Shown here piece by piece: positions 8,382-41,804 of a stretch of DNA of 64,000 bases. The translations under genes were made by a program, and so were the position numbers. The notes under the pieces were generated by a model. It had not been told where the DNA came from. It did no database searches and saw nothing but the letters and a program-made list of their open reading frames with translations. How positions within the stretch are numbered: position 1 is the first letter of the stretch; each line of letters starts with the position of its first letter. This DNA is from Circinella minor (taxonomy: Eukaryota; Mucoromycota; Mucoromycetes; Mucorales; Lichtheimiaceae): positions 248,001-312,000 of the forward strand of contig JAEPRB010000007.1 in the NCBI GenBank assembly GCA_016758965.1, written 5' to 3'.

Positions 8382-10905
8382 CTAATTAACTCGTTTTCCA
8401 TATGACTTCCATAATTCCTCACGCATCAAAAATTTTTGTGTTTTACCTACAAATAAAAGATGACATAATGTTAATAGATGTATAGTTATTGATCAAAAGT
8501 ACCAGAAACAGTATAAAGAAATTATATGCTTACCAGTGCTAAGTACCAATCCAAACATAAAAAAATTAAATTGTTAAGTTTCTCATTCAATATACATAGT
8601 GTTAACAATAGCAATATAAATAATAACAGAAAAGATTAATTTATTACCTTGTCTTTGGAATACTCTTTATAAAGATTACTTTTGCAGGGCACTTGTAACC
8701 GGCCAAGTTCTTTCTACAATGATCAAGAACAGCATCTGCTGTTGTTGTTCGACCTTCTCTTACAACTACGAATGCAAAGGGGCGTTCACCCCATTTTTCA
8801 TCCGGGCCTGCAATGATAGCACTAATTGAATAACATCAACTTTTGTAAGTACTCCAATATTCGTCTTAATACACCCTCTAATAACATTTATAGACATATA
8901 AGCAACAACACAAACCATTCAGATACTTCTTCCATAGCTACAATTGTATTTTCAACTTCAATAGAACTAATATTTTCACCACCAGATACAATGACATCTT
9001 TGGATCGATCTACAATCTCAATCACACCATCAGGATGGCGTACTGCAAGATCGCCAGTCCAGAAAACGCCTGCTCTAAAACACTTTTTGGTTTCCTCGGG
9101 ATCGTTATAGTAACCCATCATTGTAACGTTTCCAGACAAACAAATCTCTCCTATTTGCGTTCCATTTGCAACGACATCAGTGGCGGTCTTTTGATCGAGT
9201 ACCCGAACTTCATCCTGAGTAATAATATTATATCCTTGACGTGCTACCAGTCCCAAGTGCTGATCTTCGGGGTGTTGGCTAAGCGATCCTTTATCATAAG
9301 TGAGTACGCAAGGACCATAAGTTTCAGTCTATATATGTATATGTTATATATATATATATATTTCATATTTCGAATGAATCAATTTTCCATCCATAAGCAC
9401 GCCATTGATTTTTTATGTTACTTTTAATGATACATACCAGTCCATAAACCTGGGTAAGATGAATATTGAGATCGTTCAAACCACGAATAATTTTAGAAGC
9501 CAAAGGAGCACCGCCGCTAAATGCTAAAAGGGTATAATCAAGCTTTGCAGCATCCTTATGGTGGCAAACTTCGTTGTGAACTGTGGGAGCTCCGCAATAG
9601 TGGGTGACGCGTAACTCCTTGATGAGCTTCCAAATGTGAGTATAATCTATCTTGTTCAGCATCACTTGGGTTGCTATTATTATATAAAAGTATTGTTTAA
9701 ATATAAATTAATAAAAAAAATATACATTTTGCCAACACTATATTATTATATATTTTTTTTCTTACCTCCAGCCGCAACGAGAGCCCAAGGGAAATTCCAT
9801 CCGTTACAGTGGAACATGGGTAAGGTCCATAAATATACAGTTTCCGGTGTGAGATGGGCTTGTATACACATTCCCATGGCCATCATGTAGCAACCTCTAT
9901 ATGAAACCTGCAAATATATATTCACAATATAATTTACGTTATAATTACGTTGTTTGCTTTCTTCCTTTCTTTTTTGTTTATTTATTTACCTGTACACCTT
10001 TTGGTCTGCCTGTTATTTGATTTAAATATATAATTTGTTTAGTAAGGATGAAATTAATTGGATGCATGTTAGTTGCAATCTTTCACTCTTATCAATTTAG
10101 GTATCTTTATCATGAAAGCCTGCTAGGCAGGAAAGATAATTTACCTGTCGATCCTGAAGTATAATTAATTGAAATGAGGGCATTTTCATCTGTTGTGAGA
10201 GGCAAATCATTCCATTTTAATACTGTAGTTGTGTTTTGTAAAAGTTGTTCATAAGGGCAAGGTGGATCACCATGGTTTTGATGGTCGGCGACACGAATAA
10301 TTTTTACTCTTTCCTTGACGACAGAGGAAACACGAGAAAATAATTCATCTTGTACAATCAGTACAGATACTCCTGAATGTTTGACAACATATTCGATCTC
10401 TGGTTGAGCCAAACGAGTATTGAGAGGCACCATCACGGCAGCAATAGATGGGATAGCATATAATGATTCAAGAAAAGCAGGTACATTCTGACAGAGGATA
10501 CCCACGCGATCTCCAGGCTGAACATTAAAATCAGTTTTTAAAAGATTTGCTAATCGTAAAGTTCGATCAGCGAGTGTTTCATAGTCAAAAGAACGATCAC
10601 CATGAATAACAGCTGTCTTGTTACGATACACCATGGCACTTCTTAATAAGAATCGGATAGGATCGAGGGGAGTAACATGGGGTACCTGACCTGGTTTACG
10701 TTGAATACGGTCTATATTGAAAGATTTTTTGAGCAATCAATGTTAGCATTTTTAAATCTCGGTATTGATAATAATTATACGGGGTTCACTTTGACAAAGA
10801 AAGTATAATATACATACACTTTTCATGATCAGGGGTATTATTTTGAGGAGATAAGTGATTGGCAATAGTTTGCACTCGTCCTTTCACAACAGTGGAGGTA
10901 GACAT
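8382..10905 (-). CDS. AMP-forming acyl-CoA synthetase (ANL family), one apparent frameshift
   Basis: Nine exons: complement(join(8382..8446,8534..8538,8648..8821,8916..9329,9438..9673,9766..9907,9990..10009,10145..10711,10818..10905)), about 569 aa. The enzyme family activates a carboxylic acid with ATP, then forms a CoA thioester. Core motifs in order: YTSGSTGRPKGV (A3), MFHCNGW, VYGLTETYGP (A5), GDLAVRHPDG (A7), DRSKDVIVSGGENI (A8) and PKTSTGKTQK (A10, with the catalytic Lys). It resembles medium-chain/plant-type acyl-activating enzymes; the substrate cannot be told, and the C-terminus (GKRVN) is not a clear peroxisomal signal. Splice phases agree throughout, but within exon 6, between GPCVLT and YDKGSL near 9300, one extra base shifts the frame. 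The summed exon length is 1711 nt, one more than a multiple of three. This is either a young null allele or a sequencing error; all other motifs are intact. Motif A3 and motif A10 are each assembled across tiny exons. Confidence 0.85.
8534..8538 (-). other. 5-nt micro-exon of the acyl-CoA synthetase gene
   Basis: Reading the minus strand, TACTTAG|CACTG|GTAAGC lies between exon 7 (ending ACA AG) and exon 9 (starting GT AAA ACA). Joined, it reads P-K-T-S-T-G-K-T-Q-K, the invariant A10 motif. Direct joining of exon 7 to exon 9 gives AGG TAA, an immediate stop. Confidence 0.85.
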
Positions 10906-12804: not shown

Positions 12805-15800
12805 TTATAATAATGGAAGAGAAAGGTGTTTCAAAAAATTTAAATGAGGTCCTAAAACCGCTGGAATTATTAGAATCGCGAGAAGTAGCACGCAAACAAT
12901 GACCAATAAAAGACCATATTGTACTGCAATACGTTTTCGCCTTTGCTTTTGAGCATGTGAATATACATGTTTTCCTACTTGTTTGGATGGTCGAAGCCAG
13001 AACAACATGAATGAATGCCATTTATCACTTCCAGGTATAAGACATACCAAAAAAAGAATAAATAAGATATAATGTGCTAAAAAAAAATCAGTTGGAAATA
13101 AGGTCATTTCGACGATTTTACATATATATTCGCGTAAAGGCTGTGACAACGCATGCCATCCAAGCTATACAACAAATATAGATTAGAATAATTGTTTCTA
13201 ACATTAAGGGAGAGAAATTTAATGCTCAAAAGACAGTGAAAAAAAACACTTACTCCTTGTCTGTACCAACGACCGGTCCACCATGCTTGATTACTTTCAC
13301 CTTGATTAAATTCACGTGTCAAAAGTACAGTGATAGTCTTGATAATGGCTCTCTGAACAGCTGCTACAGCCACCACACCTAGCAACGTACGATCAAAACG
13401 CCAACTTTCCAAAAAATAGAGTAATTGAAAAAAAACAATAAAACAGATAATAGACCAAGTATGTGCGATAACTGCAACGGACGATCCAAACTTTACTTTA
13501 CAGCACAGCGATGCAAGCGGGCCAATTAAAATTGAAAACCCAACGAGACCTCCGAGAACAGCAGCGTTCAATCCTATAGGACCCATCGACAAGGCAACAA
13601 CACGAATTAAGACGCTTGATTTGGGGCGTTCGTCATCGGGGGTAATACTGTGTACAAATAAATAAGCGATAGTACAGATGGCCGCCATACATACAGGTAA
13701 AATAATTTCGGTAAAGAACACCACTGTCAATTTTGCGCGTGGCTGTGCATGATTAACTTTACTGCTCTTCCGCTTGACACCCGTAATCTTAGTTCGTTTA
13801 AATCGACAATAGCCTATCCAAGAACTTGAGTGGGAGGTTCCATTACCTCTTGAAAGCCAACGAAGATATTCACGATAGTCAACCAAAAAGTCAACAAGAG
13901 CGAATTGATGGGGATTAAAAATAAATGGAGAAAGTACCAGAGCAAGAACAGTTACTGAAAAATAAATAAGGTGAGGCATCCATATAACCATGCATCCAAA
14001 AAGAAGCATCAAAAAACTCCTAGCTCCAAAGTAAGTGCTTGAATCGGCAAATCTGGCAAACAGTTGTGAGAATGGAATTCTTGAAGTTGCAAATCCACGT
14101 CCAGTTGCAATATAACGTGCCCCACCATACGACAAATTGCTTAATATGGAATCAGCATAACATTGTGTGACAAATATTTCAAAAAATGGAGAAAACGACA
14201 TCAGTTGCTTTGCAAGTCGGACGATCGCTCGCAAGAATCCGCGTTCATTTAATTCTTGTAAAAACAGCGGTAGGAAGGAGATGGCAAAGATGACGAAAAT
14301 AGATATTACTACACGCCTAAGCCAATCAAAGACTGGTACCAGGTTGTAACACCCATCTGGTTCCAAAGGGGCGTCTTCTGGAGCATCTGGATTAAATTCA
14401 CATAATGTGGCAGGCATTGCCAAGGCACCAACAACTAGTGTGACAACCATAAAGAGTTGAACAGAGAGCATGATAAATATATTATTGATATGGAAACCTG
14501 GATGGGCATAGTAAAATGTCAAGAATCGGTCCAAAGGTAGTTGTGTTCCAATGTAATAGTATTCCCGTGAAAGCATTTGCTCTCCCATGCCAGTACCAAT
14601 CTTCGTAACAAAATTGAGAATAGAACCCATTCCAAGATCACGTCCCTTGCCACATTGGTAATACTCCACATGCTTAATACGCCCACCACGCTCGAATGCA
14701 TTCATACCAGCATAAATATCTTCATTGAGGTGTAACCCTTTTTGTGCTTTACTTACACCTCCTCTTGTAGTCATGAAAACACCGTTAAGGAAATCTGGAT
14801 GGCCATAATGAAGCTAATATGAATAAAAATCCCAAGCATACAGATTTTTAGTTAATTTATAAACCAAAGAAAATAAACGGAAGCTTTACACAAAAAAATT
14901 GTCTGCTTTATTTACCCTACCACCGATTGTTGCCATAATGCGTTGACTAAGTGTTCCAAATGTCTGTTCTTTTCCAGCAGCAATGTCACCAAGGACACCA
15001 ATATTTTCTGAAAAAATATATTCACGAGCACCCACGATAGCTACAGGCCCACCACTTGGAACTGAACTACTGCGGTACGGAGATATGTTGCTCCTATAGG
15101 TTTTTTGTTCGAATTCAGCAAGCACATTACGAATCTTCAGACATTCTTCCAGATAGTTATCTTGATTTGCATCGATTAGTTGAAGATATTCCCCACGGTA
15201 AAAAATCAAGGCATGATTCTGATTGTCTGACTTGCCATCACCAAGAATCGGATTTCCGGGCAATCTGATACGATATTTGGGCGATCGTGTACCATCAGCT
15301 AAAATAGGACAATGACCATCAATCAATACAGAATAATAAGTATCTTGCTGTTGTTTCTTTTTGTCGTCGCCATTATCATTATTGTTCGCAATCTTTTCGA
15401 GATATGCAATTTGAAGATTGGGGTACGCCTTAAATAAAATCTCGACGGTTTCTTTTTCTTCTTTGTTAAAGTCTGCATATCGCTGCATGGCTAATACAAG
15501 TCGAAATTTACGGTTTGCCATTTGATCCAAGTCATGATCTGCCTTTTTTTCGTTCGTAAATAAATCAGGTTGTTCTATACGATAAAGTAGTTTGATTGCC
15601 TTATCATAATTCATGAATCCAGTAACTGTTCGATACAACGTTTGTGTGCGTAACGATGCCCATATCCGCGTACGAAGAGTATATTCCGGTGCCGAAGATT
15701 TGAATCCCACACAGTAAAATGGTAGGTCGTCTGTGTCTTTGTGTACTCGTGTACGTTCAGAATCGGTTACGCTCTTGCCTTCTTCATATGTCGACAAATC

Positions 15801-18606
15801 GCCTCCTCGATTCAGTGGTATGTCTACTGATTCGTCGGCCAAAACTTTTGTGTCCTTGACAAAATTCTCCCATTCAAACGGATGAAGACGCTTGAGGTAC
15901 TCAAGTAGTGTTATTCTTGTGTTTTGATCTTCTTCTCGAATAATTTCACGTAGTGTCAACAGAACTTTTTCGCTGTAATGAGGTACAATAACTGTAAATG
16001 TTGGCATACTAGGAACAGGTAATGGTTCAGGCATTGGAGTTGTCAAACTTTGTGCAAAAAAGCGCATTCGACGCTCCGCTTCGCTTTGTTGTGGATAGTA
16101 TTCAGTTTCATAAGCAATGTCTTCTTGGGCCACAAAAAATGTCGGCTCTTCCAACGATGTTTGCTGTTTATTGGAGATATCAGGAACCTGTGTAGAGTAT
16201 ATATATAAGTTTGTGCGCTGTTAAATACATTCCTTCACATGCACACAGGAAAAGGTTTATTTCTTACCTGCTGATACAAAAGCTTTGCAACATGATCCGG
16301 AGATAACAGGTGGTCACGATACATGGCAATAATAAAAGCATTCCATATTTGTGAACAAAGAACACGGGGTTTGCATTGCATTTCGAGTTCAGACACAGCT
16401 AACATCTTTGCATAAATACGTTTTGGCAGCCGTGAATACATATTCCTCCATGGTGTCCAAATAGAAATACCAAGATAAAACGAACGTGCAACAGAGAATA
16501 CGGTGTTCCAAACGACATACCATAAATAGGTATCCAAAAAAAACAGAACAAGATCCATAATAATCATAAGTACAAGTGCGACAAACGGCATATATGAACA
16601 TAAAGAAGACCCAAATATCGCATCATTACAATTCTCAATTTGCATTCTTGCCATCACTGTAACTGGGTCCTTGAACGATAATGCCAAAAAGAAATACGAT
16701 TCGAGCAGTTTACACCCAAATACACAAATCCACAGACCCATAGATGTCGCTCGATCCATACGCTTCAAATGAGGAAAATTTGCAGTAAAAGTTTTATAAG
16801 CTTGTGCCTTGTATTTATCTTGTTGTTTGGATCTTTCTACAAAAAGCTGTGATTGTGGAACAATTGTAAAAAATAAACTTGTTGCAATACTGATGAGCAG
16901 TTGGATAACAGAAACAGCTGTTGCGATTCCACTTGTACGATCAAAATATAGGCAGTATATCGACGGACAGGTGTTTAGCAAAAAGATCGGAACAAGAAAT
17001 GTCAGTCGACGCAACAACATTCCAGCGCCATTCCAAGTCAATGGCACGTAAATGTATTCTACTAAACATGCAAGCAATACGATCAGTGTTGCAACACCAC
17101 CACCAAGAGCGACAATAGATAATTGGACTGGTAACTCGTTTTCTGCTTCTTCTTTATCCTCACTCAGATACAAGGCGCTGCCATTTGCACTGATATAGTA
17201 CCAAAACGCTACAACATGGATAATCCACACCCGAGTAAAATTAACGGCCAAGTGCATCCACGAGCGCTTCTCCTTAAAAGTCTTGGTAAACCCTTTATCC
17301 CAGCGCACCTCTCGTAAAAAGAAATATCGTTCTTCCTCAGGTATCTCCATTAATTTTCTTTTATCTTCTAACTTTAGTCTTGAGATACCCTCTTTAGTCC
17401 AGAACAATTGATTTATATCATCGTATCCAATAATATCGTCATGATCACGCTCGCGTTTTTTCCCGTCGGCTTTGTAGCTTTGATTATGTATAAAATCATA
17501 CAACGGCTGAATCACTCTATTCAAAAACTCTCCCTCAGATGCAACAGTCTTTGTATTTGGGTCATATGCGTCACTCGCACATTTGAAAATAAAACACAGT
17601 GCTTCAGGGCAAAAGCGCAGATTAGATGCTTCACCCCAAATAAGTAGCCAAAGTCCAAGCTGTTGTACACGTTCAGTATTAGACAAATTTTCCATTGCAC
17701 TTTCCCATGCCTCTTTTAAATTTTTTTCAGGGTTGCTATTGTCTTGATTCTCGTCGTTGCCATCGCCTTGAATACCCTGTTGTTGAGCAGCAAAATACCA
17801 TTGTCGATAATTGGCAATGGGACCACCAATATATTCGGCATGTAGCGACTGAAGTGCAGACAAAGGAGACATGCGAGATGCACGTGAATCCAGCATCACC
17901 ATAAGATGGTCATACATGTTCTGCATGCTATGCAGCTGAAAACCAAACGTATTGGTAAGATGAACAAACATATGTTGAATTTCTTCTGCCGAGCATGGTG
18001 CACTTGTTAAAGACCAAGATGGATATCTGTATCCTGCAGCTGTTTCTCCTCTCGAGTCAGAAGGAAGTCCGACCAAGGTATCATTTGATACGCTAGTAGA
18101 ATTATTGATAGTGATACTGGAGTGAAACTCCTTGTCATATTTATTATATTCATTTGCTGTTGGCACGGTCGCCATTGCTGCTATCCGTGCATGATTTCTA
18201 TGTCGTTTGTTTTCTAGTTGAGCAAGGAGTGACTCTGTTGAAGGAGCATAACGTAAATATCGACCAGCACTGTGTATATCATCCCGGACATGTCCATAGG
18301 AATCAACGTCAGCCGCATTAAAACCATGGGTCGTTGGAATACTGCTATCCGTTTCAAGCGATTCATTGCTTCGAGAAGACGGTTGGTTCTGGTGAGCAGA
18401 TGATGATAATAGTGATCCATTATGGTTATTGGGGGAACGGGTATTCGCTCTACAAAAATAGACATTTCCCTATTAGTTATCAAAAATCCCATTCTGTCTT
18501 AACTTTATTGTTTCACTATTATTACTACTTGCATTATTGACACGCTAGGAACTATTTGATTAGAGCTGTCATCATGCTGAGCATCAGCGCCATCAATCGC
18601 ACGCAT
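12805..18606 (-). CDS. FKS1: 1,3-beta-glucan synthase catalytic subunit
   Basis: Five exons: complement(join(12805..13164,13254..14813,14916..16187,16268..18469,18529..18606)), about 1823 aa, normal for fungal FKS. It makes cell-wall 1,3-beta-glucan from UDP-glucose at the plasma membrane. The cytosolic N-terminal FKS1 domain shows [21 protein letters not shown] first membrane cluster follows at about residues 350-700. The large cytosolic catalytic region has [19 protein letters not shown] (about 1076) and IDANQDNY, then [32 protein letters not shown] and [17 protein letters not shown] second membrane cluster runs to the C-terminus. Echinocandin hot spot 1 reads FLALSFKDP (about 619) and hot spot 2 reads DWLRRVVI (about 1345). 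Exons 2-5 are firm. Exon 1 (26 aa) is the least certain: it was picked because it gives an ATG, a GTAGTA donor and matching phase, but the N-terminus is low-complexity and not testable by homology. Confidence 0.96.
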
Positions 18607-19216: not shown

Positions 19217-22200
19217 TCATACGCTAGAGCCAGTGTTGCTTGCAGTAGTTCCTATTATTGTGCTGTTTGGGTCACTATTACTGTTGAGATTATGAGCCGT
19301 TTGCATCCAAATGATATGACATAACATATTTCCTAGATTCGCTATTTGCTCTCCATGGAGTTGGCTCGTGCGACTGTTCTCACGGCTTACCATCCACCCC
19401 TTAATGTGGCTGTTAGTGTCAAGTTGTAAATGAATCAAGTAATCCATATATCGTCCATAATTGTACAGGAGTAAATGTCGTTTTCCATTAGTCGTCCGAA
19501 GATCCTTGATACTTTTCTTTTGATATAATCTGATCAGTTGATCGAACGCTGCGTTCCAATCCAATTGAGTATGAAATATAGAAACCATGTTGCTATCCAT
19601 CCCGCATATATTTGTATGACTAAATCTACTCAACAATGTAGCCAATCTTGCTGATTGGGGACCAGGAATAGTGATAAGATCAGATGCATATAATTCAGTC
19701 CAATCGTTATGCCGTTTACAATATGCAATAACCTGGAATAACGTTTAAAGGGGAATTTTGAGAAAAAAGTACATATTTTTCTTTTCTTGCCCCTTGGTGA
19801 CATTTTTTTATCCCTTGCAATACTCCCCATTTCCTCCTTTTTTTGAACCCTTTGCAACTTACATCCCCGACAATAATATCTAGTCGGTCGCGAGCGTTAG
19901 TTATAATATCATTCAAAGTATAACCTTCAAGAAGAAGCATTTCATCAATTGTATCATTCACGTTTACATTGGATTTTGGTGGTGGGTAAGTATTCTTGTA
20001 CATGGAAGTTGGACTCATTTGACCTTGATAAACAATCAGAATAAAATACTTTAACCATAATCCTTCTTCATCCGCTTCCACAGGAGCAACAACAAGAGTA
20101 TGCTTCCATTTTCCTGTGCGACCACCATCAGGAATAAATGATAAATCATGGCTAGTTACAGCTGCAGCAATAGACTTATCTTTTACTCGTATACTCGTAA
20201 GACCATAACGTGGGGAGCTTCCTAGTAAATTGTCAAAAAAACTTTCTTTACCATCTAAAGCATCAGAGCGAATTTGATAAAATCCACGCAGTAACCTATT
20301 GTATGAATAAGAGGCTGGCTGTCTATGTATCGTTGAAAACTGGTGAAGAACGTTCAGCAGATTGAGATTCGCTAGCATAGTTGCTGTTGTATCCCCATTG
20401 CTGTCACTAGTGGTGCTGCTACTACTACCGCTGCTGTTGCTACTGTTGCTGTTTCGCGTATGGATACTAATGTTTTCTAGCATTTTTTGAATATACCGCA
20501 GATGAAAATCATGGACAAATGAATTGACATGGATAAACTGTTTGAAATGACCGCTTGTCTCCTCAAAACTACGAAAAATTCCACGATCTGGCTTCTGACC
20601 TCCTCTTCCATACCGCCGATGCAAAGTGTACAGCGTCACCGATACATACGCACCGGTAAACCGCAATTCACATAGTATAGAACCACCCTTGACTACCCGG
20701 AGAAAATAGAATGGTGCACAATCAATGGTAAAATTTTGCGAGATACGAAATATGCTGGAATTTAAGTCTGAGTCATCCGAAGGTAGCAGATCAACAAGAT
20801 GCATGTCAACACCTTCGAGATATTTGCTGTAGTCAAAAACGAAAGCTTCCATTAGACTAATATACCACTGAGTTATCTGCGCTCGACTTGATGGATCTTT
20901 GTCGAGGCTTGTCCAAATCTCGTCAAAGCGCGAAAATAACAATGGGGTACGACAATAATGTAGAAGACGAGATGATCGTAAGATTGCTCTTATATCACGA
21001 CTGGTTAGTAGCTTATCACAGGCATTGGTTCCATCAATAATGTATTGTCGACTCCACCGACTATAAACTTGACGTGCCTTACGGTGTATTGTTTGTACGT
21101 TGGTTCGTCGTATCACAGCTTCAAGGAATGGGACGCCATGACGCTTCAAGAGATCATGTTCTTGTCGTCGCGTGCAATCTTCAACGGTGGTAAATTCAGT
21201 TAAAGTGGAATCCAACTCACTTGCTACTGCTACAGTTGTTTGCTTGTCATCGCATTCAGTTGACTTTGTTGTTGCACTCGCTGCAACACTAGTTGTGTCA
21301 TTTTTATCAGTTGCAACTGTTGCATAATTTACTATATCCTGGAGCTCGAAAAGAATATTAATTTTCTTCGCCGACCGCGCAGTGGTATTGTCGATTTTTG
21401 GTATTGAGGTATCTGTTTTCTGCTGATACGGCTGTTGTAATTGTGGTGTTTTTGGTTGATGCTTAGGAGATACAATATTTATATGTGGTGTCATGTGTTG
21501 TTTAGTAACATGTTGTAGAGATGGAACAGATGCCAATGATGAATAGTTTTCAACGGTTTGCTTTAATGATGTGCTGTGATGAAATATACCCATTTTTTGT
21601 TGTAAGATATTCGTAAGCACATCATGGCGTGCTCCTTGACGGGCTACCGCACGGAAAATACTGTCAAATACATTAAGACTTGTCTTTTCGGACCAGTTGT
21701 ATGTATATACGGATATCCCTTTAGAATCCATGCGCATAAACAAGAAACAATGCTTAGCTACATCGACACGCGGAACGCTGCTTCGAGATGCTCTACTAAC
21801 AACCCCGGACATTGACCTAGATGTACTTGATGAACGCGACCTATCGTCTGCTGGTTTACTAGTCTCGTCTGATTTAAGCTGCTTCTGGATTTTGTTTGAT
21901 GCTGAGCCATCTGATGTGATTGAGCTCCTTCTTGATCGTCCAGCTATTGAACGTTCTTCACTAACCACGCTTGCTCGTCGATGATCTTCTACACTACCCA
22001 ATTTCTCGACAAATTCGCTCAACCCACTAATACCCACAAGTCGGATATTATTCCGTATCCGATCGTGTATGAGCCTTTGTCCTTGATAAAGTTCCCAGTT
22101 CGTTGCTGCAATACCTTGTTGATTAAGCAATGTCCAGGCAACCGTCATCTTCAAGTTAGTATCTAGATTACATAGTTCGCAATTGATGTAATCAAGTAGA

Positions 22201-25200
22201 TCATCCATTACCCATGGCATAATCCGGATCGCTTGGTCAAATGAATAAACAGTTGGGCTTTTCCATTCAGCAGCCTTCTCCAGAATATACAAAATTGAAT
22301 CAATAAACGTTTTGCGTAATGCCCTACCCACGCTAATACTTCTATCTTCAAATAACAAGACTCGATTAAGTAGAGCCACTCCATAGTCAATAGACACTGT
22401 CTTCTCAATCAAGTAGTCACAGAGGGATTGTCGAAAACATTCGTATATGTGGTGTAATAATGCTAACGAATCTGCCGAACCAGTAACCCAAAGTTCAATC
22501 CAAATGCGACAAACCGCATCCCCACCATTTGCTTTTGCGGTTGTCTTTATGGGCGTTGTTGTTGTGGAGATATGTTCACGAAATTCATCTTCTAGACAAG
22601 TTTTTATGCTCTCAGGATTAATATCTATGGCGTGATCAAACTGTCCATTCCCGCCGTTGGTAATATCTTTTCGAAGGACTTCGTTCGTAACACAAATGCC
22701 AGCAACGCCTTGACCTACCGCCAATTCCAGCGGTGTTGATGTCCCTGGTACACGCCTTGTACAGTTATAATAAAAACAACACTGGTTATTGTCATTGAAT
22801 TCTGATGCTGCCATTTTTGGAAATCGTCTTTGGTTATATTCCTTCACGGCTTCGATGACATAGGATCCAGTAAATGGTTTGATCGTATCAGCCATTATTG
22901 ACTGTTTAAAAAATAGTAGTAAAGTAGTAGGGTCGTTAACCAGTAACGGCATACGAAGTACCTCCTCCCCTGTTGGCGGTTTATCAAAAGGCATAACAAA
23001 TTTTACATCCTGTATTAAAATAGCCATATATAAGTTTGATTTTCAAGCTATGTTAATTAATACGTATATAGTATAGAAAAAAGTACATACTGCTGACGTT
23101 GGTTTGCTATTAGGGTTTCTTAAAAAGAAACGTTGTATTTCATTGAGTGTGATTTCTGTTGTCAAACGATTTTCAATAAGATCAGTAAATTCTTGCTCGA
23201 TCCATAGAGGTAAATCGATACCATGCACCTCAAGTACAAGCTCGCGTGTATTATCTGTAGTTGCAGATGATGTCGATCCACTCTTGCTTCCTTTGCGCTC
23301 TTCAGGAGATTTAAAATGGAGCGGTATAGCACCAGATGTTGGTGATGAAATTGACTGTGGACTACGTGATATATCTGCTGTTGTTGGAGTCATTGTAGTT
23401 GAATTATCAGCTTTAATGTTGCTACCATCGTTTAGCTCACGTTCAAATATTTTGCAATACACGATTGAGCCGCTACGTTCAATAACATACATATTTGGTC
23501 GGTTACGTACAACAAAAAGTCGCAATACATCTGCTCTCAGATATTTGAGTGCAACATTGGGTTGTAATCGCCAATGTAATGGAAATTGCTTTGTATATAT
23601 TACTGGACATGCAAATTGCCCTGGTTTGAACTTTCCGGTTGCTACTAGGGATCCATCGTTTTCAGAAACTGTGTATATATTATCCTCATCCTCAGAATTA
23701 TCGTCAGAAGAATCGAGCGGTGTACTTGTTGGTCCAATAATATGTGGTTCGAGGAACTTGCTACATATTCGTGTTTCTTGAAGACTTTCTAATAACATGA
23801 GCCGATTTGTGCGTTCTTGAATCTCCGTAAGATTGTCTTTAACCCGTTGTATAATATCGGATCGAATTTGTAATTTTGAATAGAAATATATCGAAACATA
23901 GCGTTCGTGAGGTCGCAAAACAAGCCAATAAAGGGGTCTATCTGCAAATGATACTACTGTCGAGTCGGTGGATTCAACATCTGTATCTACAGCAAGAGTG
24001 CTGATACCTAGCCCATTACACAGATCACTATTGTCTTCAGTGGTATTTTGCTGCCCAGATGATGTTGATGGCTCAGTAAGATATTGCTCTCGCTTCAAAT
24101 CCGTACCTTCGTCAGATGATAAAGTACATAGTGACTTTTCCTCTCGCATGTTGTACACTGAATCCTGGCTAATATAAAAATAATCATCAATTCGTTGCAA
24201 TCGATAACTTCCAGTAACTTGACTACATTTTTCGAGCTCGTCCATAAACACTTCACGACTATTATGCAAATCTTTAACGAATTGGAACGGAACATTGATA
24301 ACAGTAGGAAAGTCAACGAAAAGACTTCCACGACCTAGTTGACGATCGACATATTGGAGAATGGGTTTGGTAATAACTGACACTTTTAAAAGGCCATGTA
24401 GTGTTTCCTCAGTCAACAACCATCGTATACGAGCTTCGGTCTCTGCCAATGCTTCTTGTTGGTCGCGTGCCAAAGAGAAAAAGCAGGATGGTCTTGAACG
24501 CATTGAATTAATCAGTGACCTATATTACAATAACGATGTTTAAATAAGCAGTCGTTTTTTCTTTTTGTTTAGTTACTTCTTAATAGATAAATACTTACTC
24601 TTGTGGTAATGGCATAGACGGGTTAGTAATAAAAAAATCCTCATCTTGTGAACGAGGAATGTTAATACAAACAAGATGCAACGCCACCGTTGTTGATTTA
24701 TTGTCTAATGGTGACCAATCGCTGTCATAAACATTGTTCGATATGTTTGGTTCAAAGTTGATAAATTCGCTGTCTTGTGATTGGGCACCAAATACCGTTG
24801 GCAGTGATGTAATTGGAACAGTCGTAGTTCTACCACTGGCCGGGTCTGTATACACACACTCGAGTCGAATTAGCAATGGGGTCTGTGACCAAGCAACAAG
24901 ATCAACTAAAAGTGATATTTGATCATCCAATGATGTATTTTTGTCACTTGTCCTACTAAAGGGGGGCTTGTAATAAAAAAGACTCGGATTTTTATTGTCT
25001 GTTGTGCGCAACAGCTCAAAATAGTGTTGAAATATTGATGTAAAACGCTCTTGTATTTCGATTATACGATGACTACTATTATATACAGGTAAATGGATTG
25101 AATTAATCTAAACATTATTATTTTACTTTGAACTTTTCTTTTCTTTTTACCCGCTATTATCACTGGATTCTTGGCGCTGTAGAGTCATCACATTAACAAA

Positions 25201-28200
25201 CTCGGTAATATCAATTCGCATAACTGACTCGTCACAAACATTCAGAACTTGCACCAAGTCGTTCGCATCTACTAAGAGACCTCGCATAAGACAAGTATAA
25301 AATGATCGGAAAAAACTCTTGCAGTAGAGCTGCCTCACATTTTGTGCCACTCCAAGTACTCGTTCTGTCAAGCAGGAAGTAGCTTTATCGTGAAAATACC
25401 CTTCAGTCAATTTTGGTCTCATGATATCCCCTAGTCCATCGTTTTCATGAACCAAGTACTCAATTGGCTTAACAGTAATTCCGTCGTCGTCATTGTCGAT
25501 GACCATTTTGTTGATGTTGTAGTTATTACTGACCCCGTCAACCCGTTGATCATTTTTCATAGGCTTAAGAGGTTTTTTGCGAATACATTCGAACATAATA
25601 AAGTCCATTCGATTATCTGTCAAAGACCGTTTTTTCTCGGATAAACCATGGATCACCGCATCAAGGGTTGGAAATAAAGTGATCACAAATGAGCGGACAT
25701 CAATTAAAGTGACAAAACAACGTAGCTTGCGCAAATCCGTGGCAAGTTTTAGTCCAGAGAAGTAGTGTTTGCTAGTGAATATAGCATGTTTCAATTCTGA
25801 CCAAAATCGAGTACCGCTATCATGGTGGGTCATTATAATCTCACTATCCGTCATAGCTTCTAGTCCATTTTCCGCAAAATAATGCAATAATGCGTAGTTT
25901 TGTGCATCTATTTCTAACTGCGCTAATGCCTTTTTGTTCCTGTTCAAGATTGGATCAGGACGAAGACATATATCACTCTTACGATCATCTTCCTGATGCT
26001 GATATTTATGACAACGGTGTATATAATGAAGCTGTTGCTGTTGTGACGTCTGTTTGATCAACAGTTGTTCATTCGACTGTTGTGGTTTTTCTTTTTGCAC
26101 TTCCTGATAATCGTTTCCATTGGGCTGCTGATCCTTTTTCGTGTCTAATGCCAATGTGTAAAACTGTGGTGATGTAAAGCTGGTAAGAACAAATACATTA
26201 GAGCGTAGAACAGATGTAACATCGAATAGTTGCGGTAGCATCATCACCATTGTTGTACTTTGCTGGTCAGTAGCACTCCTGTTAGTACTAGTTGCCATTG
26301 TTGATACTGACTCTCGTGTAGCCTTCTCCTTAATATCACCTTTACTTTTGGAGCGTGCAACAATGTGGATCTGATCAAATGTCACCAGTTGTGATATGGT
26401 CTTTCGATCTGGATTACCTGTCCATGCCTTCAGGATTTCATATTGGTCATGGCTGCTGCTTGGTTCCATCCATAGTTCAGTGGTAATCTCCCCTGTATCC
26501 GAATCTTTCCAAATAAAATACTGTACTGAACATGGATCGCTACTTCCAGACAATTGAATCTCTTGGTAAAAGTGTGTACCGTCCGGTCGAGGAGATACTA
26601 ACTGAAAACCTTGGTCAAGCCTTGCTTGACATAGAAATTGAAATGCAAGATCATGAAGTGGCATCATTTTGTGTTCTCGATGGTACTGATTCTGATGACT
26701 ATCAGTTTGCCATGTCCATGTTATATGTCGTAAATAATCTCGTACAATATATTCGTTTGCTAACCACATTGCAGTTGGAAGATACCATGTTCTTGATTGA
26801 TTGCGGATCTCCGTACTTCCATCGTCTTGGTGGTAGTGTTTGGTGTCTCGCATCAGTAAACGAGAATATGGTCGACGACATATCATACTTGAAGGTTCAT
26901 CAGGCAATTCGAGTATATGTAATAGATGTTCCATTCCTCGTTGTCGTGCTTGTACGTCCATATTAAAGAAAAGAAGTCGGACAGATATGAGCCGCCCATA
27001 TTCTCTACGCACGCGTATTTCATAGAATGAAGGAGGATAACTGAGACTATATGAAAAGAACTCCTTGGCGTTGTTATCATTCATTTCAGGACTATTGACA
27101 AAGCGGTTCATGACACGTACAAACGTACCATCTGCACCTTGAAAATCGGCCCATAATCCCAACACATGTTGTAGATTTTCGAACGCTTCATTGATGGCAT
27201 ATTCCACATTGTTGACAAAATCTTGATTGTATAACGACGTCAATTTCGGTGACATGTAAGGTGATACGTCTCCTAGTAACAAATCAATACAACTGTCATC
27301 ATACCAGCTGCGTGGCCGTGGACGATTTGGTGATCCATTGATTTTCTCCCAGAAGCTGCGGAATGTTTCGATGAATGCGTTTTTTTGTTGACTTGCTTCA
27401 GTCAACTGTAACCCAGAAAGATATTTACTGTTGAACCCTAAAATTGTTTTGAGTACTTCATCTCCTTCATAAATATCGATCAGATAATTTTTAAGTTTTT
27501 CAGCTTTGACGTATGCTGGCGCATTGTACGTGTCACTAAGATAAGGAGCTCCAGTTACAACACCCATCATCTGTGCACGTCGTCGAAAGGCATCCCAGTT
27601 TTGAAGCATGTGCGCAAACTCTGCATCTGTTCGTACGAATACTTCTGCTCGTGGTGCTTTCGCGCGGCTAAAGATACTGCTGGGGAGAAAACGGGGATCA
27701 GTTTTGAATTCTCTCATAGGGCCAATGATCGCTGGTAACCATGTTGCACGAATTCTATATTCAATAACAACGTTAGGTTGCCATTGTAAAGCCATAATAA
27801 TCTGTATACGTTCTTTTTTTACAGAGCTGAAGTCTGGGGCGTCAAACGTACGTAAAGGACTGGTATCTGCTGCTGTTGTTGCTACTGTCTTTTTGGGATT
27901 ATCGAATGAAACAGAATGTAATGTAAAGCCTTCTCTAGCACGTGACGCAATTACATGTGAGAATTCTGCTGGTAATAGGTATTCGCGATACCGTAACAGT
28001 CGTAATGGCTCTAGAGGTCCGGAAGCGGCAGGATCCCATGGAAAGTTGTACAGTCCCTGCTGTTCATCCATGACAAGTCTATCACGGCCGGTACCCCTTT
28101 CTATTGGATCATAAAGTCGTAGATCTGGATGTCGTGGTGTCAATGTAAATTCTCGTAAGAGATACTTGGCGTGATAAATATTGGGAGACTTGATATCTGT

Positions 28201-30087
28201 TTTGTTAGCTGGTACAATTTCAAAAGCAGGTTGTGCCTCATCTTGACTGTTGTTTTTATTATATGCTGCCGTTGAATTGAGTGCGACTGTCGGTTCATCC
28301 ACAACTGGTTTGCATTGATCTGAATATGTAAACGACCCGCCTGTTGCTTTGGCAAGAAACATAAGAATTTCACTGTCAGGGACAAAGCCGAAGTTCCTTC
28401 CTGGAATAAAGCTATGGACAGACCCAACTTGAATAATGTGGCATGTAACATCTTCTTCAGCAAATTGTCGCACAAATGTATTGTCATGCACATTGGACTT
28501 CATCGCACCATCCGTAATCAAAATCATTTGCGGTCGTCCTTCGCGGGGCAGCAGTTTTAATGCAAAATGACCAGCATGCAATATACGCGATAAATTGGCA
28601 CCTGATTTACCCATACCCCAAATTTCTTGCTTGGATAATTGATGCCTTGGACGTCGATTATGCTGATTTTCATCGTTTTTGTCATTATTAATAAGTGACG
28701 GATCAGCCGTCGGCATGACCGACCCATTTGATTGATGCAGTTGCGAAGATGTATGCTGTCGTTGTTGTTGAGGCAACGATACAACAACTGGTGAATTTTC
28801 CGGTGGTAATGATGTTGCATCCAATACACTGACATCTTGTGGGGCCACTACTTCTCCGCCAACATCTAAATCATATTCCAAGGTAGACCGCTTTCGTTGC
28901 ATCAGATTTCGAAAACTGGAAATGTCTTTTTGAAACGAAAGGAATTCTGAATAAAGCTTGGCGACGGTATGGTGAATGTTATACGTGCCAACAATAACGT
29001 TCTGCATAAACACACGCATTGTTGGGTGATCGGCAAGCATAGGGATAACGTTGATATTAGATGCAAATTGTGAACAATCAGCCATTACGGTCAATCGTAT
29101 ACGTGGTCGCAACTAAATTTAAAAAATCAAATATTAATAATTAGGGTTAGATATTCTCTAAAATGATATATATAGGAACTTACTATTGCTTTTTCTTTTA
29201 CAGATAAAGGAAGTGAGAATGATTGAACTAGTCCTTCCAAAGAGTTTCGTAAACTGTAAAATGCACAATAAATAGTGATACATCAGCGTTACACGACTTT
29301 TGTGCACTTTTTTACTACATAGAGATCTACCTTTCAAAAGCACCTGACAATAAGATCGTCGGTGTTGTGCTACCAACAGTAGCAAGACTTGAACTAAGAT
29401 CCAGAATATAGACTAGCCGGTATTCGCATGTTATGGTCATGAGTTTCGTCCTTGGTGTTAATGCAAATACTTCTCCAGGACCATGAGATGGATCACCCAT
29501 TGAATCAGTCAAGGATCCATCTGTAAATTTAATTTCATTGGTTGGTTAATAGTCCACAACTTTTTTTTGTTTCGACTGCGCGCACTTCTCTCAACTTGGA
29601 TTTTATACCTTCTGGTCTCCAAATACGCCTTCGACTTCTTGAAAGATATAATACTTTCATTATCTGTAAATTATAAATAGATACATAAGTATGAGTATTA
29701 TGATTGTCAACTATCCATATAAACGCCTATATATGAAGGAATAGTATAGCGATACAATACGTCGTTCTCCATATTTGATAATGGTTGAAACAAGCTCTTG
29801 AGAAGCCATTGAATGTATTCGTTTTTTGTTGATACCCGTGAATATTTCAATAATACAATAGCCGTCCGAGCTTCAACAACCTAAGTGAATTCATTACGCG
29901 TCAATACATTTCCTTATCACGATCTCGTAAATGATATATTTATTTATAAATAAGTACATACTTTTACTTCATTCCCTTGAGCCTTTAGATTAACAGTTGT
30001 CCCATTAGAAGTATTGTCATTTATCGTGCGAGAATTCTCCGGACGCGCTTTTCCAGCGTCCTTGTTGTTGTCAGCATTATGCGACAT
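19217..30087 (-). CDS. SZT2: SZT2-like protein (KICSTOR complex subunit)
   Basis: Ten exons: complement(join(19217..19732,19863..23009,23091..24519,24599..25072,25151..29112,29184..29253,29331..29520,29609..29663,29761..29880,29962..30087)), 3362 aa with every phase closing; animal SZT2 is about 3400 aa. In animals SZT2 is the large scaffold of KICSTOR, which holds GATOR1 on the lysosome so that TORC1 is switched off when amino acids or glucose are scarce. Similarity I recognise: a VWA-like start at about residue 130 (EYRLVYILDLSSSL) and, at about 370-430, PQMILITDGAMKSNVHD, then DVTCHIIQVGSVHSF, NFGFVPDSEILMFLAKATGG, which parallels the SZT2 segment ending in FGHVPNVELMKFIAMATFG. The rest is large, mostly soluble, with Ser/Asn/Gln-rich loops (for example a poly-Ser stretch near 20400-20450). 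The first two exons are small and of moderate certainty. Other giant scaffolds are possible, but the length and N-terminal match favour SZT2. Confidence 0.83.
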
Positions 30088-35867: not shown

Positions 35868-36225
35868 ATTAAAGTGAAAGAAAAAACTAAACGAATTGAA
35901 GAACTACAATAAAAACTGTTATTAATAGAATTGAATGATGATATTGATATTATAGTGAGCGAAAATAAAATGGACCTTGATAATAATAACTCTGATCCTG
36001 AATTAGATGTTCCAAAGAATTATAGTAGAGATTAAAGAAAAAGAAATAAAGGTAAAAATAAAAAAGTTACTGATATAAATAAATTTAGAAATAATAATAA
36101 AAATGTATGTAAAATCAAACGCATTATTAGTCATAATAATGTCATTAAGAATATAAGTTTTTAATTAAATAGAAAAAATATTCTGATGATGATAATAGTT
36201 AGTTTCTATTAATAATCTAACCAAA
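35868..36225 (+). pseudogene. relic of chromodomain-transposase C-terminus
   Basis: Translation in two frames gives a charged linker (EIKVKEKTKRIEEL, VSENKMDLDNNNSDPELD, KRNKGKNKKVTDINKFRNN) and then EYKFLIK-stop-KKYSDDDNS-stop-FL. It lines up with the acidic linker and chromodomain of the transposase relic at 38679 (EYIFFVKWKNYPSTDNSWL): both signature tryptophans have become TAG. There are further stops and one frameshift. The DDE core is missing. Confidence 0.65.
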
Positions 36226-36245
36226 AAGACATGTTAAGAAAAATA

Positions 36246-36726
36246 CAGGATTTTACATTCATTTCTGGATGCAACCCCCAATTTTTTCGCTTATAAGAGT
36301 GATTTTGTTCGCTTATAATGTCAGTTTTTTTCGCTTATGATATGATATATTTTTCGTTTATGATAGCATTAATTTTCGCTTATGATATGCAATATTTTTC
36401 GCTTATGATGGAGGTATTTTTCGCTTATAATAGCAATAATTCTCGCTTATAATACTTATATAATTTTCTTACTTATGGGGTCTAAGACATTCACTTATGA
36501 AGATTAGAGATTTACACAAATGATAGGGGAGTTTTTCGCAACTAATATCATTTTTTTTTTTTTGTATTTGCTACACCTGCTTTTATGGGATTAACCAAAT
36601 GTCACCTATTATAAGCGAAATATATTGCATATCATAAGCGAAAAAAACTGACATTATAAGCGAACAAAATCACTCTTATAAGCGAAAAAATTGGGTGTTG
36701 CGTCCGGAAATGAATGCAAAATCCTG
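36246..36726. mobile_element. foldback MITE with TA target duplication
   Basis: 481 bp bounded by TA on both sides. The left end CAGGATTTTACATTCATTTC and the right end are inverted copies over more than 100 bp with few mismatches. Both arms are themselves made of degenerate tandem units of about 22-28 bp centred on TTTTTCGCTTATAA/GATA (about eight units on the left, four on the right). The centre (about 36470-36600) is unique. TA duplication and CAG ends suggest mobilisation by a Tc1/mariner-type transposase. There is no coding capacity. It lies about 20 bp downstream of the decayed chromodomain, so it inserted into older debris. Confidence 0.75.
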
Positions 36727-37081
36727 TATGCTAATCAAAACCAGTTGGTAACTAGTTTAAATTAATTTGATACTCTACCTATATCATAAAAACAAAAATA
36801 GTAGTAATATTTATAGAAAGACACGCTATATCTATTTTTTTTTACTTATTGACTAAGTATATTTTCTATTATGTATTCTAAATCTAATAAACTTCCATTG
36901 CCGATTGTCATATCACAATATATATCTTTCTTTACTTTTTTTGATCTTTTTTTCTATTTTAAGGTTCATCTAGTAAAATATTTATATTTTGTCTTTGTTT
37001 ATTTCATTTTTTCGGTATGTGATCATTAAGGTGTATGATGGAATAATAATTTGATTCAAAAATAAAGAAAATATAAAAAAA

Positions 37082-37336
37082 ATGAAGAGTCATTGAAACA
37101 GTATTTATTCTCGAGAATAAAATAAAGATTATTATTCTATGTACGAGTTGGTCTATTTATATGAATTGTTTATCATGATGGTTTTTTTCTAGTATGTCAT
37201 CTGAAGAAGAATATACCTTTAAGAGTTTTATTTAACACTACTTAAAATATGATAAACCTATTCTTAAGAAGATCATTGTAGGATGGTCTATCAGAGGTAG
37301 ACGCCCTAGAATCTCCAGTATTTTTACATTCCTAAT
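37082..37336 (-). repeat. right arm of the ~240-bp inverted repeat
   Basis: Partner of 35542..35785 (see there). The motif TTTATTC-CGAGAATAAAATAA followed by CTATTTATATGAAT is echoed more weakly near 40200-40245 and 41098-41130, suggesting a family of relics in this desert. Confidence 0.65.
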
Positions 37337-38182
37337 CCCATGACACTATAACTATAGTTATATTGTGTATATATATATTTCTCCTTATTTCTAATTTTTG
37401 TTATTCTCTTATAGCACATTAGCACATATACCCTTCATATTTACCCCATCTATAAATATATATATAAACATTTTTACTAGCATTCGAATCCTAAAAGCTA
37501 TTTAAACTTGTAGGTTCAACTTTTTCTTTTTTCATTGTTTTTAAACTAGCTACCAGACAATCCCCTGCTACATTTTTGCCATTATTACTAATAGGCCTAA
37601 CTATTAATATCCTATTTATACTAAATACTTGACTATCTGTTCTCATAATTCGAATCCGATTTTAGATAAAAATGAATATGATATTAGGTGAAGAAATCGA
37701 TTCCAATTCCAGGTAAAGTTGGATCAAGTTACAAGTAAGAATTAATTTCATTGGCCAGATATGAACTTCATTATTATTTCTTGTTTGGAACTTCTGATAG
37801 TGATTTATTTTTAATGATAATAATAATATGATAATAATAGTATGCTTGTGATATTGAAAAACGTTGAGAGATTACAAGTAAGTTTTATATATATATATAT
37901 ATATATATGTTTTAGATGTGTATTTTCCTGTATTTGTAGATGAGATGTTATATTATGATAAATTGTATATTATGTGATTATGAATAAATAAATTATGCTT
38001 GATTATTATATTTGTATCATATTATTATAAGGTGTCATTGGCGCATATACATTATCATTTGTTCTTATATAAAAACTATTGGTAACAAATATTTTGTTGG
38101 TAACAAAAATTTAAAATGTTTATAAAAGTGAATTTTGAATTTATAAAAAATAAATTCATCAAAAGATTAAATCAAATTCATA
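37337..38182. other. AT-rich spacer, no gene recognised
   Basis: About 850 bp between the right repeat arm and the convergent relic ORF pair. It includes a TA microsatellite at 37886..37909. Nothing coding was recognised. Confidence 0.5.
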
Positions 38183-38529
38183 ATGGTTGCACTTAACAAT
38201 TATCTTCCAATTAATCATATACAATTACGCACGAATCTATGTAATGAGATCGATACTTTTATGCAAACTGAATTTGACTATTTTATTAAACAAAATATTA
38301 TTAAAAAAATAACAAAAAAAATAACAAACAAGATAAAAAATCTATTCTCATCAGACTATTTTCTATACCTTTCTATACATAATAGTTTTTGTATACATAA
38401 ATTTCAAAAGGGAAAAAAAAAGGTAGATTTTGTGGAAAAAAAATAAAAACTAATTTACCTGAACATAATAAACCTGATTATCTTTGTTGTTCTCATAGTA
38501 AAAAACATATACCAATAAAAAGAAAATTT
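38183..38529 (+). pseudogene. relic ORF with zinc-binding-like motif
   Basis: Starts MVALNNYLPINHIQL. After a run of nine A (38413-38421) a 1-nt frameshift gives KKGRFCGKKIKTNLPEHN then YLCCSHSKKHIPIKRKF-stop. The pattern C-x(n)-KG-x-KG-x2-C-G-x(n)-C-C-x2-H-x3-H looks like a small zinc-binding module. It converges tail-to-tail on the transposase relic at 38679, only 149 bp away, and has the same extreme A/T and Lys/Asn/Ile bias. It is probably a second ORF of the same element; the function is unknown. Confidence 0.5.
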
Positions 38530-38678
38530 TGATAAAAATAATATTTTAGAAGGAATGAAAAAGATAATAAACCTATTATAAAAAAAAAAAGAAAAAAAGA
38601 AAGCCTATAAAAATTACGATAGGAAATCCCTTTTACTTATGCTTTAATAATATTTTACCTTAATTTTATATTAAAAAT

Positions 38679-40125
38679 TTATATATGAAGATTATGTTTT
38701 AAAATATATTCATTTAATAAATCTTTTTCATTAAACTTATTGATATGTAACCAACTATTATCTGTAGAAGGATAGTTTTTCCATTTTACAAAGAATATGT
38801 ATTCATTATGTTCAATTTTATGATTAACTATGCTTTCTATTTCATATACCTCATTATCTTTATTTCTAATTTTATTTATATCAATAGCCTTTTCCTTTCC
38901 TTTACCTTTACGTCTTCTTTTCTTTTCTTTAAATTTAGGAATATCATCTTCACTACTATTGCTATTATCTTCATTATCATTTTCACTGACTTCATTATCA
39001 ATATTCATATTATCATCTATATCAAAATTTAAAAATTGTTCTTGTAATTTAAGCATTTCATCTTTTTTTAATGCAGCTTCACTTGAATTACTAATAACAA
39101 TATCTATTAATTTGGCTTCAAATGGAAATTCAAAATCATCAGGTTCCCATAATTTATGATGTGCTTGTGTATTTATATTAAATTTATCAGAAAACTTTTT
39201 TATATTTTTTAGTAAACAAGCAACACGAAACTGAAGATTATAGAACTTTATATTATTCATTTTTACTATAGATTTATTATTATTAAATCTGCTATATTTA
39301 TTACCAATTTCTGAAAACTGGTTTTCAATTTTTGATCTAAAACTACCAAATACATCATTATAATGTCTTTCATCTGCTGTTAAATTGATATTAATTTCTT
39401 TACGTATTGGATATATAAAATTATTTTTAGATAAATCATATCCTTTTTCACTTGAAAGTTCTATTAATTGATTTATAATTAAAGTATATCCCCCATCAGT
39501 TGCTAACACATCTTGCTTAATTTATTATAAAGTTTCATATTTAAAAACATAGAACCATCAGAACTATCAGAACAATAATCAATTTTTGATGTATAAATTA
39601 TCATATCATTCATATCTGATACAATTTGTGTTCGTATACCATTTTTTTTAAATTTATAAGAAAATGATCTTTCATGTTTTATATCAGTATTAATATAATT
39701 TATTCGTGAATTATGTCCATCAATAATAAATGTAATATATTAAATAATGGTGGATTATATTTATATGATGATAAAATACGTAACCTTATTGTTGAAAACA
39801 TATTTTCTAAAGAATTATTAACTATTTTATTTATTCTTTTATAATTATCTTCATCCATCCAAAACTTCTTATAATATTTATGATATGTTGCTTGAGGTAA
39901 ATATTTATTGATTTCTATACCTGATATACCTGATACTAATTGATATAATAAAAGTAAACCCTTTTCTATTTTGAAATAAGGTCCAGGATATTCACAATTA
40001 GTATATAATATTATCAAAAAAAAGAATACTGATATATATCCAAGTTTATCAACTAAAATTTGTTTAATTTCTTTTATATTTTTAATATGTTTTATTTCTG
40101 TATGGTGTTTATATTTATGGTTTAT
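38679..40125 (-). pseudogene. decayed DDE transposase with C-terminal chromodomain
   Basis: Three frame segments read as one protein. Segment 1 (to about 39733) has a helix-turn-helix-like N-part (GIEINKYLPQATYHKYYKKF). Segment 2 holds IIDGHNSR, then IVSDMNDMIIYTSK and DSSDGSMF. Segment 3 (38679..39509) has LATDGGYT, ADERHYNDVFGSFRSKIENQ, an acidic/basic linker, and a chromodomain near the end (EYIFFVKWKNYPSTDNSWL). The two aspartates and the E/IE-rich block follow the DDE_Tnp_4 (PIF/Harbinger-like) plan; the third catalytic acid is probably in the VFGSFRSKIE block. Two frameshifts (near 39733 and 39508) and a missing clear start make it inactive. The chromodomain may target insertion to methylated-histone chromatin, as proposed for chromoviruses; that is an inference. 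Confidence 0.75.
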
Positions 40126-41732
40126 GTTATATCAATCAAATATAATAAAAATAAAGAGACGTTAAAAAGTCAACGAGACCCAAAAGAACAATAATTGAAC
40201 TCGCGTTTATTAAAATAAAATATTATCTCTATTTATATGAATCTTATTATCGGTGGGATATATATTGATATGTGTATATAGCTATACGTAAGATTTAAAT
40301 TTGTCATGGCCGTGTGAATTATGAATATAAGATTAATGATATTAAGATTAGACTTTGAGCGGTTGACGATATGATATATCTACGCAGCTGTTATCTGTTA
40401 TCATTATAGAAGACGGACTTCTGTGTTCTTACAAATCATGGTCCAAATAGGGAAGTACACGAAATGTCAGCAAAGCATAATTAAAAATACGCTGTACCTT
40501 AATAATTAAAATGACAAATAATTATCTTTATGAATAATATGTGTTGGATACAACAGTTTATAATAGGTCAATTAGATTCTAAAAATTTCCAATTATTAAT
40601 AATAATTGTATTAACTTCATTATTTATTTTTTGAATTAAATCTTGCTGGTCTATTGTATAATTTATTTTTTTTATAAATATAAAATTCAATTATATAAAT
40701 AATTATAATAAATTTGTAATCATCAGGAATTTTTATAACTCCTAAAAAAATTGTAACTCTTAATTTTTATGAAATATCACAACTAGGGTACATACCCTGA
40801 TGATGAATAATAACAATAGTATATATAAATATTATATCTTATATGTTTTGCTATTGATAAAATAATATATCAATATATATAGCTATTAAATAATATTAAT
40901 AAAGACAATAGACTTCTTTAATATTAAGAGTCATTGGAATATACAGTAAAATACCAAAATGTCAGTAAAACATATTTGAAGTATGCTATACTTAAATATA
41001 TAATATTAAATGACTATTATTATAAAGCTATTGTATATGAGATAAATATGAGTAGTAAAATAGAAAGATAGGACTAAAGTAAATATAGTTGAGAATCTGT
41101 TTATTCCTGAAATAAAATAACTACTCTTTTATATCTTTTCTAAATTATATAACTATCTTATTTTATCTGATCATGGCTAAACTATGTTTTATATGAATGG
41201 ATGAGAGGACTTATTATATTTGTTCTATTATAAATATTAATTCTAGATCATTCTCTAAAACCGTTTATAACAGTTATTACTAATCTCATTCTTTCTTTGA
41301 TGTTCCTTTATTATCCGGATTAATAATAAGAATGAATCAAAATATATAATAGTGTTTAATTGGTTATATCTTTTATCCTTGACGCTTGACGGAATGATGT
41401 TTGACCGATTATTCATGAATGGATGGAATATATATGTTATTATGGTGGTTCATCACAGTATATGTATATTAGATACAATAATAATACCTATTGTAATATA
41501 TAATATTAAATAACTATTATTATACACATAGTAGTAGTAAATATTATATAGTACATATCAACCCTTTATCTCAGATAATTCAAATATAAAATAATATGTA
41601 AAGACTCTAAAGCAATCTTATATATTACATCAGTTACTTTCTAAATATATAAATAATAATTCTATTTAAACTATTATACAATTTTTATTGGCCCTTGGCT
41701 GATTTATTATTTTGAGTCTTTTCAGACATGAG
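40126..41732. other. AT-rich desert with weak repeats
   Basis: 1.6 kb without a gene. The block near 40470-40530 (AAATGTCAGCAAAGCATA, GCTGTACCTTAATAAT) recurs in diverged form near 40955-41025. Stretches near 40200 and 41098 resemble the arm at 37082..37336. These are probably decayed copies of one or two repeat families. Confidence 0.45.
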
Positions 41733-41804
41733 GGTTTTCTGGTGTAATGGTTAGCACTCTAGACTTTGAATCTAGCAATCTGAGTTCGATTCTCGGGAAG
41801 ACCT
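41733..41804 (+). tRNA. tRNA-Gln (anticodon UUG)
   Basis: 72-nt cloverleaf without an intron. Acceptor GGTTTTC pairs with GAAGACC (one G-T pair), followed by discriminator T. The D-arm region TGGTGTAATGGTTAGCA is typical of eukaryotic tRNA-Gln. Anticodon stem CTAGA/TCTAG with loop CTTTGAA places TTG at 41766-41768, reading CAA. The T-arm is CTGAG-TTCGATT-CTCGG. The first long T run downstream (about 41850) could end Pol III transcription. It stands alone in the repeat-rich zone. Confidence 0.95.

Follow-up and report, generated by a model that had tools for sequence, protein, structure and literature searches.

We analyzed a 64,000-nucleotide (nt) stretch, here referred to as the window, at positions 248001-312000 of contig C7 in the 46.6-Mb Circinella minor genome assembly (619 contigs). 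The window encodes SZT2-A, a full-length homolog of animal SZT2. In animals, SZT2 links KPTN-ITFG2 and KICS2 to GATOR1, recruits GATOR1 to the lysosomal surface, and permits TORC1 to be shut off in starvation; with KPTN, ITFG2, and KICS2, it forms the KICSTOR complex. The gene lies on the minus strand (30087..19217), and splice modeling resolved it into ten exons and nine introns (71-130 nt, all GT-AG). The phases close, and the model has one terminal stop and a product of 3362 amino acids (aa). Its exons are as follows.

29962..30087, minus strand: exon 1; start ATG at 30087; a similar N terminus occurs in the Phascolomyces protein P0002
29761..29880, minus strand: exon 2; end backed by P0002
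29609..29663, minus strand: exon 3, from the splice model
29331..29520, minus strand: exon 4; carries the VWA-like DLSSS motif
29184..29253, minus strand: exon 5, from the splice model
25151..29112, minus strand: exon 6; about 1320 aa; contains ILITDG and the FGFVPDSEILMF segment
24599..25072, minus strand: exon 7; its first 40 aa are absent from the public model P0001
23091..24519, minus strand: exon 8; holds most of query 1873-2177, the region that matches SZT2 best in the single-sequence search
19863..23009, minus strand: exon 9; 1049 aa
19217..19732, minus strand: exon 10 and stop codon, from the splice model

A first-pass annotation of the window had proposed ten exons with closing phases and 3362 aa, and our splice check reproduced that model. 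An alternative of 3374 aa, in which exon 2 ends 36 nt later, was rejected in favor of the shorter exon 2 because the N terminus of P0002 lacks the 12 extra residues. The public record for the protein (Circinella minor INT45_007499; P0001) is labeled only "hypothetical protein." P0001 is identical to SZT2-A in each of the two stretches that align (1425 and 1814 aa), but it starts 83 residues downstream of the start of our model (M96 of the 3374-aa version), with the first exons (window 30087-29664) missing, and omits 40 aa at intron 6 (window 25150-24950). These 40 residues are present in the consensus of 12 proteins of the copy-A clade described below, and for that reason they were retained at the start of exon 7; they match SZT2 itself only weakly (-0.4 bits).

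A Phascolomyces protein shares 72% identity with SZT2-A in an alignment that spans 100% of the query. PDB sequence matches of SZT2-A at E<=0.01 were SZT2 chains only, and both results lie far beyond chance; the single-sequence match to SZT2 had an E value of 6.9e-40. The copy-A profile matched SZT2 with an E value of 3.9e-72 (245.7 bits for the whole), its ten listed stretches being colinear from SZT2 residue 78 to residue 3411. The VWA-like start (DLSSS; ILITDG) and the DVTCHIIQVG...FGFVPDSEILMF segment, whose order had been pointed out in the first-pass annotation, stand in the expected order in the spliced protein. Counted by eye, DxSxS is present in 28 of 33 alignment rows (two blank, three different) and TDG in 32 of 33; we take these two motifs of the VWA-like N terminus to be marks of the SZT2 family. 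The protein, tested as P0001, yielded no Pfam domain at E<=0.01. Human SZT2, as seen in KICSTOR structures (PDB 9o5a, 9o5d, 9o5e, 9v0j, 9v6e, and others), measures 3432 aa, so that the near-animal size claimed for the fungal protein also stands. Common to the two are the order of the conserved stretches, the VWA-like N terminus, and the predicted folds of the N- and C-terminal parts. A weak SZT2 match was also seen in an oomycete protein (Phytophthora fragariae P0045, 3001 aa; E value, 7.6e-22, over 9% of the query), a hint that the family may predate animals and fungi.

The predicted structure of the first 1100 aa of exon 6 superposes on residues 145-962 of the SZT2 chain in 9o5d, and that of exon 9 on residues 2207-3268 of the SZT2 chain in 9o5a. 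Thus, in the models, both the N-terminal and the C-terminal part of SZT2-A have the SZT2 fold. Small-domain matches at lower Z (spermine synthase, PR-10 proteins, and others) were set aside as common folds. Judging by PDB titles and residue ranges, GATOR1 (and SAMTOR) accompany the resolved N-terminal part of SZT2, and the KICSTOR core entries cover the C-terminal part. These entries fit a division of SZT2 into N- and C-terminal parts, and the modeled SZT2-A appears to retain the folds of both.

All of the partners that the first-pass annotation had named for a search (KPTN, ITFG2, KICS2, and the GATOR1 subunits) are encoded in the same genome. KICS2 (contig C76; PF09404) and ITFG2 (C26; PF15907) scored above the curated Pfam cut-offs, and KPTN was found on C30 with the human query. 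Six-frame searches placed the GATOR1 genes DEPDC5/IML1 on C31, NPRL2 on C222, and NPRL3 on C178. Each partner search gave one locus or one exon cluster among the best-scoring candidates, and further divergent copies are possible. Some of the six-frame matches run across stops (nine in NPRL3), which we read as intronic; the crude spliced models have no stops but are over-extended. The KPTN and ITFG2 models had PDB matches exclusively to those subunits, and the KICS2 model matched KICS2 and 2gnx, an entry titled "hypothetical protein." Sestrin was found on C69, and a Bmt2/SAMTOR family member on C3; a family of yeast rRNA methyltransferases is called Bmt2 as well, and SAMTOR is therefore a family label only.

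Searching the genome with a 1406-aa stretch of SZT2-A detected a second locus on contig C166, with 25-53% identity in pieces:

C166, about 75264-62290 (loci L023 and L024), minus strand: SZT2-B, a second full-length SZT2

SZT2-B aligns with its relatives between about 74980 and 62301, and exon chaining gave 3803 aa, stop-free up to the natural stop, with a provisional 5' end. The KICS2, ITFG2, and KPTN genes occur in both human and Circinella, and the fungus has two SZT2 genes, whereas to our knowledge animals have a single SZT2 scaffold. In a quick tree of 48 rows, 22 fell in clade A (with the window), 19 in clade B, and 7 outside, with Umbelopsis basal in each clade. A careful 33-row tree rooted on Mytilus supported A (13 rows, 100/100), B (11 rows, 100/98), and A+B (100/100), with Jimgerdemannia as the sister of A+B (99/100); the tree program warned of long branches and of uneven letter composition, and Endogonales are represented by one Jimgerdemannia record. 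Besides the window genome, seven species have one record in each clade: Radiomyces spectabilis, Phycomyces nitens, Spinellus fusiger, Rhizopus stolonifer, Thamnidium elegans, Chlamydoabsidia padenii, and Umbelopsis isabellina. Given the basal position of Umbelopsis in both clades and the species with both copies, the tree places the duplication before the Mucorales-Umbelopsidales split, with both copies retained in these species.

We conclude that SZT2-A, one of two fungal co-orthologs of animal SZT2, is most likely a KICSTOR scaffold (probability, roughly 0.8). By analogy with the animal system, its C-terminal half would assemble with KPTN, ITFG2, and KICS2, and its N-terminal half would hold GATOR1 at the vacuole or lysosome. 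GATOR1 would then act as a GTPase-activating protein on a RagA-type GTPase, turning TORC1 off when nutrients run out; binding, location, control of this activity, and nutrient response are all modeled on animals. Several observations weigh against this assignment. Identity to SZT2 in the superposed parts is about 20-22%; mean predicted local distance difference test (pLDDT) values are low (60 for the exon 6 part and 67 for exon 9); and the best Foldseek matches have query-length template modeling scores of 0.39-0.47 with root mean square deviations near 10. Of the 10 stretches listed for the profile match, only 5 reach E<=0.001 on their own. The role itself is argued from genes and models, and SZT2-B might be the copy doing the job.

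That last point leads to an explanation that we regard as unlikely, namely, that SZT2-A is a true SZT2 homolog that left KICSTOR after the duplication, with B keeping the scaffold role and A acting elsewhere or only together with B. The genome does hold two full-length copies, and we compared them at 421 alignment positions at which at least 7 of 9 outgroup sequences have one residue. When gaps are counted as losses, copies A keep 70% of these positions and copies B 77%, and in the VWA stretch at the N terminus the B profile outscores the A profile against SZT2 (52.7 versus 30.8 bits). With gaps set aside and five thinly filled positions dropped, which leaves 416, retention also differs unevenly along the protein: A is weaker at 1501-1650 (0.60 versus 0.86 for B), and B is weaker at 751-1050 and at the C terminus (statistic, 5.99 versus 2.57 in shuffles [standard deviation, 0.70]; reached by 1 of 2000). 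Neighboring columns are non-independent, the rows come from related sequences, and the A set includes incomplete rows; we therefore take the unevenness as no more than a hint that the copies divide their duties. Over these 416 positions as a whole, however, retention is nearly equal (76% for A and 78% for B), and the window's own A keeps 77% of the 421 positions versus 70% for the B on C166. Whole-profile scores against SZT2 are likewise close (245.7 bits for A and 253.1 for B), and A retains the predicted fold of both terminal parts.

The protein might instead belong to another giant family and have nothing but a generic VWA domain in common with SZT2. The lack of a Pfam domain in P0001 would suit this idea, the VWA-like core is widespread, and TFIIH complexes are among the weaker structure matches of the exon 6 model. 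The similarity extends across the full length, well beyond a VWA domain, in the profile, the PDB matches, and the superposed models, as the first-pass annotation had anticipated, and we consider this alternative refuted. Animal contamination or an assembly artifact is refuted as well, and no evidence in its support was found: the introns are short, the 72% identity to Phascolomyces belongs to a graded series across Mucorales, the same protein stands in the public C. minor record, and among the neighboring genes are a fungal-type FKS1 glucan synthase and an STE-like transcription factor. The other features of the window are as follows.

675-2687, minus strand: frame with SHD1 and F-box-like domains
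4714-5265, plus strand: start of a glycosyl hydrolase family 3 gene
10110-10736, minus strand: AMP-binding enzyme exon
13104-18469, minus strand: 1,3-beta-glucan synthase gene FKS1, directly downstream of SZT2-A on the same strand
36000-42000: low-G+C island (21-25% G+C)
38679-39521: frame with a chromodomain inside the low-G+C island, possibly a chromodomain retrotransposon remnant
44063-45037, plus strand: GalT
46912-48243, minus strand: RRN3 polymerase I factor
56863-59870, plus strand: STE-like transcription factor; C2H2 finger match below the cut-off

Returning to SZT2-A as a KICSTOR scaffold, the first-pass annotation had suggested that the complex was kept in early-diverging fungi. This inference holds; the partners are encoded, and the tree fits vertical descent. 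Its central claim, however, was already published in 2025 and is of low surprise: Barua, Plecha, and Muszewska (2025; PMC11836306) report that KICSTOR, TSC, and Sestrin are conserved across Mucoromycota and that every member of the phylum has SZT2 in "more than two copies." Compared with the SZT2 proteins of non-Dikarya fungi covered there, SZT2-A is one more member, and our searches of the Circinella genome show two copies. Because of that wording, a third locus was sought, and two own-genome searches gave only C7 and C166; the first used the 1406-aa SZT2-A stretch and the second two non-adjacent SZT2-B pieces, the C-terminal one of which missed even SZT2-A, and a divergent third copy is possible. 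The main text of the article names neither Circinella nor Umbelopsis, and the passages covered here do not date the duplication, a date that may stand in its supplements; we found no other literature on SZT2 paralogs, their ancestry, or SZT2 in Mucor or Rhizopus. Among our 66 distinct protein-database matches (46 + 21, one common; four without an organism name), no Ascomycota or Basidiomycota name appeared, which is weak evidence of absence in a word-based search.

The ancient A/B pair is the lead that deserves more work. Mucorales and Umbelopsidales may combine two ancient full-length SZT2 scaffolds with one common set of KPTN, ITFG2, KICS2, and GATOR1. As a tentative proposal, the two copies could build alternative KICSTORs or pair up in a mixed A/B dimer, dividing the duties between them; the dimer is considered because human KICSTOR-GATOR1 was solved as one (entry title, PDB 9o5e). 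The pair would offer a way to assign functions to the two halves of the scaffold, and a filamentous fungus whose genome has all four KICSTOR and all three GATOR1 parts is a candidate system for studying how the complex works, which is impossible in budding yeast.
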